Assembly (NCBI RefSeq): GCF_014643835.1
Contig: NZ_BMKD01000006.1
Coordinates: 199,883-263,882 of the forward strand
Source of the DNA: Mucilaginibacter rubeus
GTDB taxonomy: Bacteria > Bacteroidota > Bacteroidia > Sphingobacteriales > Sphingobacteriaceae
Reading direction: 5' to 3'
Length of the DNA stretch: 64,000 nucleotides
The translations under genes and the position numbers were made by a program. Shown in pieces: positions 36,360-62,766 of the stretch (position 1 is the first letter of the stretch; the number at the start of each line of letters is the position of its first letter). The notes under the pieces are model-generated. The model saw nothing but the letters and a program-made list of their open reading frames with translations, was not told the DNA's origin and did not search any database.

Positions 36360-36430
36360 GGTCGGATGGCCGAGTGGCTAGGCAGAGGTCTGCAAAACCT
36401 TTTACAGCGGTTCGAATCCGCTTCCGACCT
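36360..36430 (+). tRNA. tRNA-Cys(GCA)
   Basis: 71 nt cloverleaf: acceptor GGTCGGA/TCCGACC, D-stem GCC/GGC, anticodon stem GAGGT/ACCTT with loop CTGCAAA (U33 present, anticodon GCA), T-arm AGCGG-TTCGAAT-CCGCT, discriminator U73, which is a cysteine identity base. CCA is not encoded. This is the ordinary cysteine tRNA of the window and the reference for the divergent RNA at 60969. Confidence 0.97.
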
Positions 36431-36460
36431 CAGGGTTAAAAAAATTTAAAATAAAAGACA

Positions 36461-36634
36461 ATGGGCGTTACTCGTTTAAAAAGAAAAGACAGGAGAAATA
36501 AAACTTTTTCACGCTTAGAAGTACAGTTCTTGAAACTGGCTACTAACCTAGAATACGGAAGCCGTTCTGCTGAGTCAAAACACAGCCAGATAGCTAAAAA
36601 CAATGCAGCTTTAGATATCGCATTAGGCAAATAA
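36461..36634 (+). CDS. 57-residue basic protein, conserved-looking
   Basis: The frame runs MGVTRLKRKDRRNKTFSRLE to NNAALDIALGK and stop, 30 bases after tRNA-Cys. It has a strongly basic N-terminus (seven Lys/Arg in the first 14 residues), then an amphipathic helical stretch (VQFLKLATNLEYGSRSAES). There is no hydrophobic segment, so it is cytoplasmic and possibly nucleic-acid or ribosome associated. It is followed at once by a strong terminator, suggesting cotranscription with the tRNA. Function unknown; the coding call rests on composition, placement between tRNA and terminator, and a clean ATG and stop. Confidence 0.75.
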   Translation: MGVTRLKRKDRRNKTFSRLEVQFLKLATNLEYGSRSAESKHSQIAKNNAALDIALGK

Positions 36635-60618: not shown

Positions 60619-60764
60619 TTTTTTCTTTCAGATACTTCTCCAAAGAATTCGAAATAACATTGTTTTTTTACAATAACTGCAAGTTTATCCCATTCAAAAT
60701 CAGCGCAAAACGAATAAAAATTAAATTAAACTACTTAAACTATAGGAATTATATAATTTATTAT

Positions 60765-60772
60765 TACATTTG
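60765..60772 (+). promoter_or_regulatory. -7 promoter element TACATTTG upstream of the SAM-I riboswitch
   Basis: Exact match to TAnnTTTG. The predicted start of transcription (about 60778) is 30 bases before riboswitch helix P1. I find no further promoter between the riboswitch and the tRNA-like RNA, so both should lie on one transcript. Confidence 0.65.
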
Positions 60773-60807
60773 TACTGTCAACAACGACAACACGTTCTTT
60801 ACATAAC

Positions 60808-60916
60808 TTATCAAGAAAGACTGAGGGAAAGGCCCAAAGACGTCTTAGCAACCTGTACATCCGCATAATGTAAAAGGTGCTAATTCCTGCTCCTGTGCAA
60901 AACGGGAGAGAGATAA
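60808..60916 (+). ncRNA. SAM-I (S-box) riboswitch
   Basis: All core S-box elements are readable. P1 is TTATC (60808-60812) with GATAA (60912-60916). P2 is AAGAC/GTCTT enclosing TGAGGGAAAGGCCC and the kink-turn. GCAACC (60848-60853) follows, then P3 TACAT/ATGTA, the conserved GGTGCTAATTCCTGC (60876-60890), and P4 CTCCTG/CGGGAG. The aptamer binds S-adenosylmethionine. An alternative hairpin AGATA-ATTA-TATCT (60911-60924) would compete for the 3' strand of P1 and is the likely start of the switch. SAM-I RNAs normally control methionine or sulfur genes; here no such gene follows, only the tRNA-like RNA at 60969. Confidence 0.95.
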
Positions 60917-60968
60917 TTATATCTACACCCCACAACCGATCTGATTAAGTGAATTTTTATGGTTTTCA

Positions 60969-61039
60969 AGTCGCGTGACCGAGAGGATAGGTGGGGGTCC
61001 GCAATACCCTAAACGGCAGTTCGAATCTGCCCGCGACAT
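60969..61039 (+). tRNA. divergent tRNA-Cys(GCA)-like RNA downstream of the SAM riboswitch
   Basis: 71 nt, gap-free alignment to tRNA-Cys at 36360 with 51 of 72 positions equal (including one base beyond). Acceptor AGTCGCG/CGCGACA has six pairs and an A1:A72 mismatch. D-stem is ACC/GGT with GG in the loop, anticodon stem GGGGT/ACCCT, loop CCGCAAT with anticodon GCA, T-arm GGCAG-TTCGAAT-CTGCC, discriminator U73. Six stem positions differ from the ordinary tRNA by compensated pairs, showing that the fold is conserved. The base before the anticodon is C instead of the universal U33. CCA is not encoded; T-runs follow at 61044 and 61056. Decoding function is doubtful. Confidence 0.85.
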
Positions 61040-61043
61040 CAAA

Positions 61044-61063
61044 TTTTTCCAATCCTTTTTTTT
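61044..61063 (+). terminator. probable 3' end of the riboswitch / tRNA-like transcript
   Basis: T-runs TTTTT (61044-61048) and eight T (61056-61063) follow the tRNA-like acceptor/T-arm stack, which could itself act as the terminator hairpin. No separate hairpin is present. DUF3943 ends just beyond on the other strand. Confidence 0.45.
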
Positions 61064-61068
61064 ATAGC

Positions 61069-62514
61069 TTACAGGTTAACTCTGTACCTTGTTGAGATCC
61101 GCAGGTACGGGTAAATTTTGTCTACATCCGGGTGATTTTTATAGTTTCCTTCCAACCTGAAATATCCAGGTTCGGCACTTATCGAGAGGTCTTTTAACAC
61201 ACGGTAACTTATCTCATTGGTTATGGTATGTAAAAAATAATGTGACTTATTACCGTTAATAGTCATGAGCCAACTACCGCGATAATTAATACTATAATAA
61301 AATCTGTTACCTATATTAAAACCAGCTCTGCCGTTTATGGCGAAACCCGAGCCGTAGTCATAATTACGCCCTCTATACAGGTAGGGATCGGGAGCGGCTC
61401 CTAAAATGATAAGCCCCGCACCCACCGCCGTATTCACTTTAAAGCCATTCAATAATCTAAATTCGGATAGTAAATTAGCCTTTACGCTTTGCCCTCCGTA
61501 AAAGAAAGCGGCATTACGTATATAATCATAATTAGCCGATATGATGATCAGGTTTTCCACGCTATCCGATATTGACACGTCCCATCCTGCAAGAGATCCA
61601 TAAACACTGATCACATTAACCGCACTGCTATCGTCTTTTCCAAACTCGGCTGTGATGGAAATATTGCTGAAAGGTGTGTGCAAATTTTCGTTAGAAGCGC
61701 CGTAAAGCAGCTTCGCCCGGCCAAACCAACCAAACCGTCCATGGGTTAACAATCCCTGGTTGCCGCTGTTAAACTTACGTGCGCCCAGATCAAATTCGGC
61801 ACTTACTTTTGATGAATCATCCTGCGACCTATTTGCCGGCCCAACAACCTTTCCCCATTTTCCATCAATAATGCGGTTAAGCCCATTCATCGGGTTAACC
61901 AAAAAACCCAGCACCTCACTGGCCTGCCGTTTAAAACCCCGGCGATGGTTATTAATGATCTTATTTGATAGCCGATAGGTCATTTCACCCAATACTATGC
62001 CGCCAAAGCTGGTGTTGATAAAATCATTAGGGGCGGGTGCCTGGTTTTCGGCAAATGTTTCCCACAGGTAACTGCCCACCATAGTAGCCGGTACTGATTG
62101 CCAAAAACTATAACCATTACTCCTGAAGGCGCTATAAAACATGCTGCCGTGATATGGATGTCCAAACTGGTTGGTTTGAAACGGATCATTGTCCCAGGTC
62201 CAACTGCCTGGGTTCAGGTTATGGCCTGTTGTTTTCCAGGAAATCCGGGCATAATCAACGTTGACTATATAGCGATCATATGTCCAGGGCGCAATCTCGG
62301 CGAGGCCAAGCCCTAAGGCAGCCCTTCCAAAACGTTTCTGTTTTGCCGGCGGATCTGAAAATCGTGTTATGGTATCTTTTTCCTTACGCAGGTCAAAAAT
62401 ATTAACCTGGGCCCCTACTTGCCGGCTGCAGAAAAGCATGAACAGTAAAAGCGGCAGTATAATTCCTAACCTTCCGGAGTATTGCCTGGTAAAATGGTAA
62501 TCCGTTAAAGTCAT
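61069..62514 (-). CDS. DUF3943-family protein, predicted outer-membrane or periplasmic
   Basis: 481 residues from the ATG at 62514; a TTG twelve bases earlier is also in frame. The N-terminal hydrophobic segment (about 15-35, PLLLFMLFCSRQVGAQ) looks like a signal peptide. The DUF3943 region (about 90-200) includes HPYHGSMFYSAFRSNGYSFWQS and NTSFGGIVLGEMTYR. The C-terminal half is built of alternating beta-strands (FGWFGRAKLLYGA, FYYSINYRGSWLM, YLRISTRYRVNL) as in outer-membrane barrels. Function unknown. It converges with the tRNA-like transcript. Confidence 0.82.
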   Translation of the reverse strand: MTLTDYHFTRQYSGRLGIILPLLLFMLFCSRQVGAQVNIFDLRKEKDTITRFSDPPAKQKRFGRAALGLGLAEIAPWTYDRYIVNVDYARISWKTTGHNLNPGSWTWDNDPFQTNQFGHPYHGSMFYSAFRSNGYSFWQSVPATMVGSYLWETFAENQAPAPNDFINTSFGGIVLGEMTYRLSNKIINNHRRGFKRQASEVLGFLVNPMNGLNRIIDGKWGKVVGPANRSQDDSSKVSAEFDLGARKFNSGNQGLLTHGRFGWFGRAKLLYGASNENLHTPFSNISITAEFGKDDSSAVNVISVYGSLAGWDVSISDSVENLIIISANYDYIRNAAFFYGGQSVKANLLSEFRLLNGFKVNTAVGAGLIILGAAPDPYLYRGRNYDYGSGFAINGRAGFNIGNRFYYSINYRGSWLMTINGNKSHYFLHTITNEISYRVLKDLSISAEPGYFRLEGNYKNHPDVDKIYPYLRISTRYRVNL

Positions 62515-62766
62515 ATACACTAACAATTTAAAAGATACAGCTACGAAAGTTATAAAGGATGAAGTGAATTAGGTTAAAAAATGTTTGAACAATATTTAAT
62601 TAATGTTAAGCGGATATAATTTTGATAATGCATTGGGCGGTAATGGGTGCCAATAATTGTTATTTCCTTATTTAAGTACTGAAACATATTTTCATATATT
62701 TAGCATTGCTTAACCTGTATATTAAGCACCATAACCAGTATAAATTATTGCAATTACTTTTTACTT

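Follow-up and report, generated by a model that had tools for sequence, protein, structure and literature searches.

SAM-I (S-box) riboswitches allow expression when SAM is low and, to our knowledge, the targets of known riboswitches are protein genes and a few small RNAs. The closest known system to the one described here is EutX/Rli55, in which, according to the available part of its description (PMC5821096), an AdoCbl riboswitch likewise stands over a non-coding RNA and not a protein gene; EutX acts by sequestering a protein, and a terminator that the ligand stabilises shortens it, whereas the RNA discussed below is tRNA-like and has a complementary linker. Two other systems bear on the product itself: bacterial initiator tRNA, which has a 1:72 mismatch in common with it, and the 3-thiaglutamate pathway, where Cys-tRNA-dependent peptide extension provides a bacterial example of non-ribosomal Cys-tRNA use (accessible text of PMC9016710). 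No riboswitch controlling a tRNA gene was found in the accessible text of the open-licence literature, and such a pair is not described in the available portions of PMC8632094 or PMC2864571; an earlier description elsewhere is possible.

We analysed a 64,000-nt stretch of Mucilaginibacter rubeus DNA (hereafter the window), for which a sequence-only reading had proposed a SAM-I riboswitch followed by a tRNA-Cys-like RNA. Both parts were recovered. A full-length SAM-I aptamer lies at 60805–60919 on the forward strand and scores 79.1 bits with RF00162 (model positions 1–108), above the curated gathering score of 44.4; it is complete, as had been claimed, with these boundaries replacing the original 60808–60916. 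At 60969–61040 on the same strand there is a second tRNA-Cys(GCA)-like gene (tRNA-Cys2), identified by ARAGORN and RF00005 and by alignment and pair counts. It does follow shortly after the aptamer, at a distance of 49 nt and not the 52 bases first counted. The complete aptamer is that of an S-box riboswitch but, unlike in the usual S-box arrangement, the sole product directly downstream is a tRNA-like RNA.

When positions 60700–61150 were scanned alone, tRNA-Cys2 scored 41.7 bits against the RF00005 gathering score of 29; in the scan of the whole window it was absent from the matches at gathering score. Its GCA anticodon occupies 61001–61003 and is preceded by C33 (61000). A1 (60969) faces A72 (61038) at the end of the acceptor stem, U73 is at 61039, and the CCA end is only partly encoded, by its first C alone. 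In isolation the sequence folds into a cloverleaf with the GCA anticodon present. As a comparison copy we used the ordinary tRNA-Cys(GCA) of the window at 36360–36431 (forward strand; ARAGORN; 62.4 bits with RF00005), which has G1-C72 and U33. By eye (36360–36500), this ordinary gene is preceded by a typical -7 box, and about 30 nt after the gene a small basic ORF begins.

The promoter assigned by the sequence-only reading is seen by eye as TACATTTG at 60765–60772 (forward strand) and is also present in aligned relatives; it fits TAnnTTTG, which we take to be the -7 box consensus of Bacteroidota. Upstream of it, at 60740–60754 on the same strand, lies an operator-like motif, CTATAGGAATTATAT. 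In line with the earlier claim that no promoter separates aptamer and tRNA, a scan for sigma-70-like promoters, whose model does not cover Bacteroidota, found none between them. Likewise, there is no methionine or sulfur gene downstream of the aptamer in cis in the window: the first ORF past tRNA-Cys2 (61069–62526) is on the opposite strand. The linker itself (60920–60968, forward strand) contains a C-rich part (about 60926–60937) complementary to the 5′ strand of the tRNA anticodon stem, the sequence TAAGTGA (60946–60952), about 5 nt of which complement the 5′ strand of aptamer P1, and a T-run at 60954–60958.

Conservation of the aptamer-linker-tRNA unit was examined by searching window positions 60800–61055 against 149 genomes of the genus. 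Among the matches listed, 25 had 81–100% identity over most of the query, and there were weaker ones besides. The 25 include that in G001, the nearest genome to the window (25% of the window's sampled 31-mers are common to both), which has four SAM-I aptamers and tRNA-Cys2 behind one of them. Across aptamer, linker and tRNA the window and G001 differ in one linker base, while the sequence upstream of the promoter diverges; the 72-nt tRNA-Cys2 sequence of the window is identical in locus L034. When 28 loci were aligned to the window, all 29 rows contained TAAGTG. This near-identity despite a diverging upstream stretch, together with the recurrence of the unit in the genus, places the aptamer-tRNA pairing beyond chance, with the loci of these related species not being independent events. 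The joint conservation of riboswitch and tRNA in many species suggests that tRNA-Cys2 is produced at low sulfur.

The same 149 genomes were searched with a covariance model built from A1/R72 sequences (R1). Ordinary tRNA-Cys accounts for many matches at about 84.8 bits, and at least about a hundred score higher. We parsed 114 listed loci, two of them from the window; all locus counts below refer to loci listed and parsed, and are lower bounds and no census. Three were ordinary, with G1-C72, and 111 non-canonical, and in 109 of the latter 1:72 is mismatched (A.G in 81, A.A in 27, C.A in one). The remaining two, L095 (A-T) and L126 (T.G), are paired at 1:72 and both SAM-I-linked. Two further tRNA-Cys in L020 and one in L032 escaped the parsing regex and are uncounted; the acceptor filter dropped none. 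All 109 mismatched loci have the GCA anticodon.

Stem pairing was counted on the 88 distinct mismatched 72-mers among the loci listed, Pedobacter-type loci included. Acceptor pairs 2–7 are formed in 86–88 of the 88 (4:69 in 87), with two-sided changes at 3:70, 5:68 and 6:67, and T-stem pairs also in 86–88; 1:72 is paired in 0/88, as follows from the way the set was chosen. Pairing is weaker in the anticodon stem, with 27:43 formed in 66/88. These counts bear on the idea that an orphan riboswitch happens to lie next to a stray, decaying tRNA pseudogene. The low score of the window tRNA (merely 41.7 bits), its C33 and its A1.A72 would agree with decay; against this stand stems maintained by double changes, a unit near-identical across species with diverging flanks, and the number of directly linked loci in the genus (43 among those listed), with varied downstream neighbours among the 28 named. 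Chance and decay are contradicted by these comparative sequence data, and we regard them as very improbable.

The bacterial determinants of cysteinyl-tRNA synthetase (CysRS) recognition listed in the accessible text of PMC9976931 are U73, G2-C71, C3-G70 and GCA. The window tRNA-Cys2 carries U73, G2-C71 and GCA; G2-C71 is also present in 87/88 distinct 72-mers, and at position 3:70 the window has U3-A70, C-G being found in 20/88. Two elongator hallmarks are altered in the window copy, where the 1:72 base pair is missing and U33 is replaced by C33. In sequence terms, then, tRNA-Cys2 appears to have kept the charging determinants (GCA, U73, G2-C71) and to have lost elongator features (1:72 and, in the window, U33). 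A 1:72 mismatch leads to exclusion from the A-site in E. coli, as stated in the available part of PMC11231383. Unlike initiator tRNA, tRNA-Cys2 has a GCA anticodon and U73 (Cys identity), and it is without the three G:C pairs 29–31:39–41, since 31:39 is U-A in 80 of the 88 distinct 72-mers.

Alternatively, tRNA-Cys2 might be a translating isoacceptor supplied in extra amounts at sulfur limitation, so that Cys codons are kept read. Its anticodon loop speaks for such a role, since 96 of the 109 loci keep U33 in a CTGCAAA loop, as do RF00005 matches at gathering level (36–54 bits), obtained for 16 of the 19 tRNA-bearing loci scanned. The 1:72 mismatch in 109/111 non-canonical loci, C33 in the other 13/109 (including the window) and the frequently open 27:43 pair argue the other way, and three of the 19 scanned copies (L068, L089, L102) are missing from the matches at the tRNA gathering score. 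We consider a special elongator improbable.

The sequence-only reading had called for a test of whether the pair is conserved. Among the 109 mismatched loci listed, 74 have a SAM-I aptamer 5′ of tRNA-Cys2 on the same strand. Besides the direct arrangement (<110 nt, 43 loci), the distance is 200–320 nt in three, about 800–1000 nt with a peroxiredoxin-type ORF in between in 24, and about 1250 nt in four, which fits an intervening desulfurase-like ORF; in the remaining 35 there is no SAM-I within 1.7 kb, L079 and L104 having little upstream sequence. Aptamers were located in these 109 loci by regex; when RF00162 was run on 20 sources for aptamers that the regex had missed, it confirmed an aptamer in L102, L119, L143 and L150, the other 16 giving no match. 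In the 800–1000 nt group the ORF matches the size, and in most cases inspected also the start, of the 211-aa ORF of L033, whose Pfam domains (AhpC-TSA and 1-cysPrx_C) make it a 1-Cys peroxiredoxin. In two loci of the 1250-nt group, L005 and L094, Pfam identified a class-V aminotransferase, presumably of the desulfurase kind. The order SAM-I, desulfurase-like gene, tRNA-Cys on one strand is seen in L005, L066, L091, L094 and L095; in loci of this type (assigned by Pfam for L005 and L094 alone) the tRNA begins 10–21 nt past the stop codon.

Among the 35 loci without SAM-I, 16 lie within SusD or peptidase S51 operons and 11 behind an AhpC-TSA-like ORF (Pfam on one member of each, the others by eye), seven lie behind an apparent promoter of their own, and L079 is of peroxiredoxin type at a contig end. 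The tRNA-Cys between SusD/peptidase S51 operon genes is of A1.G72 type (L075, L089, L123–L125, L127, L129–L134, L136–L138 and L140; Pfam on L132 and L075, the others by eye); no Pfam family was matched by the 256-aa ORF that follows the tRNA in L132. A leader like AGTGATTnnnTAGTTTTTTT, recognised by eye, precedes tRNA-Cys2 without SAM-I as well (L076, L087, L092, L103, L114, L118). More distant relatives adjoin genes without a clear sulfur link, such as PhyH and fatty acid hydroxylase. The occurrence of tRNA-Cys2 without SAM-I in 35/109 loci, together with a first downstream ORF (≥90 aa) on the other strand in 24 of the 28 named direct loci, makes the suggestion that the tRNA is a mere tRNA-shaped expression platform less supported.

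Outside the listed matches, pattern searches demanding A1 and R72, by which forms paired at 1:72 are uncountable, gave hits in 57 of 251 genomes of the family (four of 25 genera) and in five of 295 genomes of the class, all five of the window's genus. At least 120 named stretches carry the pattern, mostly from Mucilaginibacter and Pedobacter, and also from Hufsiella, some Chitinophagales and Cytophagales and one genome labelled Flavobacteriaceae. Of these, 28 are direct, 11 have the peroxiredoxin spacing, two the desulfurase spacing and two a spacing of about 280 nt; seven have the tRNA before SAM-I, and 70 have none, some ending at the locus edge. One condition under which the sequence-only reading was to be abandoned, absence of the pairing in all relatives, does not apply, as the unit recurs across the genus.

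The linker was compared with the tRNA behind it. In 38 related elements it is complementary to tRNA positions 1–31/35, with a mean z of -2.14 relative to base-shuffled linkers. With dinucleotide shuffles, for one representative of each of five tRNA types, z was -2.51 for the element's own 5′ half, +0.10 for its own 3′ half and -1.14 for the 5′ half of ordinary tRNA. Permuting linkers among the five tRNA types gave a P-value of 0.016, which is near the floor because the permutation has only five groups. Linker and tRNA also change in a matching way: GGTTAAG occurs with CTTAACC in L052 and L053, and GTGGGGG with CCCCCAC in L042. Complementarity is weaker in L143 (z -0.99) and L032 (z -1.18).

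For ensemble folding, forced P1 was used as a proxy for bound SAM; the calculations describe equilibrium and leave out SAM energetics, tertiary contacts and the order of co-transcriptional folding. Across the 38 elements, the probability of the tRNA acceptor stem averaged 0.05 with P1 forced vs 0.39 with P1 penalised, and it was lower by at least 0.25 with P1 forced in 19 of them. From P1 forced to P1 penalised, the window went from 0.31 to 0.93, and L070, L083, L098, L106 and L126 from 0.00 to at least 0.94. Among the 19 non-switching elements, 18 are trapped with or without P1 and L143 is folded throughout. With P1 forced, 27 representatives had a mean acceptor-stem probability of 0.05 with natural linkers vs 0.46 with shuffled ones. 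In the window, 5 of 20 shuffled linkers reach the natural value, disrupting the tRNA as well, and in L044, L045, L048, L061, L067 and L106 four to seven of the 20 shuffled linkers pair with the tRNA to the same extent. The minimum-energy fold of the window linker and tRNA without the aptamer is a cloverleaf, and the trap is therefore not strong in the window; the full transcript with a 30-nt 3′ trailer has a minimum-energy fold other than a cloverleaf, with an energy that does not stand out (z -1.10).

These data suggest a model that applies to the window and to roughly half of the relatives. In the SAM-bound state, P1 would form, the linker would pair with tRNA positions 1–31 and the cloverleaf would be disfavoured (off); with SAM absent, the 5′ strand of P1 would pair with the linker TAAGTGA and the tRNA would fold (on). 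The target of the predicted switch is the folding of a tRNA, in contrast to SAM-I control through a terminator or ribosome-binding site. A more conventional attenuator, in which SAM acts through transcription termination at the T-run before the tRNA and linker-tRNA complementarity is a by-product, might be read from the T-run found immediately 5′ of the tRNA in 18 of 29 alignment rows (L044–L061); in the window's clade this run is interrupted or displaced, the window scan revealed no intrinsic terminator between aptamer and tRNA-Cys2, five relatives' linkers folded alone have no common hairpin just before the T-run, and complementarity exceeds that of shuffles. We hold attenuation to be unlikely, if still a serious contender. 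That SAM decides between trapping of the tRNA by the linker and its folding, yielding a sulfur-regulated, CysRS-charged tRNA-Cys outside elongation, we propose tentatively and with some doubt. If so, the unit would exemplify both a novel type of riboswitch output and a regulated non-elongator tRNA of a new class, a consequence put forward with equal reserve.

The broader reading, to which we give nearly even credence, is that of a sulfur-response unit whose product is a second, specialised tRNA-Cys, repressed by SAM, chargeable and poorly elongating. The lack of SAM-I near 35/109 listed loci, the 1:72 pairs of L095 and L126, the G1-C72 tRNA-Cys behind a SAM-I aptamer in L032 and the distant relatives next to genes of no obvious sulfur link speak against it. 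The single CysRS would be expected to charge tRNA-Cys2, given its U73, G2-C71 and GCA, and, by analogy with E. coli initiator tRNA, the open 1:72 end (plus C33 in the window) may bar it from normal elongation. Since it would be charged yet kept out of elongation, tRNA-Cys2 could at low sulfur hold back cysteine, compete for CysRS or donate Cys to a non-ribosomal user; a CysRS decoy and a non-ribosomal Cys-tRNA were also among the roles suggested by the sequence-only reading. A second CysRS as its partner was ruled out: 40 of 41 genomes have one full-length CysRS, other matches being weak.

A dedicated role as Cys donor to a non-ribosomal enzyme, for example a peptide aminoacyl-tRNA ligase (PEARL) or another aminoacyl-tRNA transferase, is compatible with charging determinants kept and elongator features lost, and enzymes using Cys-tRNA exist (available parts of PMC9016710 and PMC11962472). 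PF04738 is present in 68 of 96 genomes with tRNA-Cys2 (those among the R1 matches listed, plus G094) vs 28 of 53 without (Fisher's test ignoring kinship, P-value 0.03). However, it is missing from 28 of the 96, no aminoacyl-tRNA-using enzyme was recognised among the neighbours examined (Pfam on some), and no enzyme of the 3-thiaglutamate type was seen beside the unit. A dedicated donor role seems to us rather improbable. The link to a PEARL-type enzyme is weak and not exclusive by PF04738 distribution, and such a partner is not required for tRNA-Cys2.

Overall, the interpretation of the sequence-only reading is partly supported. What is new here is the 1:72 mismatch, the variants with peroxiredoxin and desulfurase-like genes, the common upstream motif and the tRNA-complementary linker. 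If the proposed sulfur-response unit is real, SAM level would be tied to the cysteine-tRNA pool through a new expression platform, a linker trapping a tRNA, and a regulated tRNA, charged yet outside elongation, would be available as a concrete case open to testing.

The operator-like motif upstream of the promoter probably supplies a second, sulfur-linked control. A CTATAGGAATTATAG-like motif matching at 12 or more of 14 positions is found upstream in 26/26 distinct direct loci, from which the consensus CTATAGNAATTATAG was itself derived, in 19/21 loci of peroxiredoxin type, 3/3 of the 280-nt type, 2/4 of desulfurase type, 8/24 other SAM-I loci and 0/3 loci with the tRNA before SAM-I; shuffled sequences score 8 to 9 of 14 on average. 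A putative likeness to the CymR operator was considered and not adopted, the accessible text on CymR giving no motif sequence. In G001 the exact pattern shows no enrichment: it gave two matches vs three for the reversed control, and so carries no weight alone as a regulon marker. By eye, the motif also precedes the tRNA of L081, L082 and L090, all without SAM-I.

Some Pedobacter loci have the reversed order, tRNA-Cys2 behind an apparent promoter of its own and then SAM-I (L149, L150, L152, L156, L175, L179, L190, L274, L281); the gap is 29–41 nt in L175, L179, L190, L274 and L281, and RF00162 confirms the aptamer of L150. In another genome (G031; L032:611–841, reverse strand) a SAM-I aptamer stands directly before a different tRNA-Cys that has G1-C72 and an acceptor stem with, as judged by eye, a bulged A; this pair is perhaps of independent origin.
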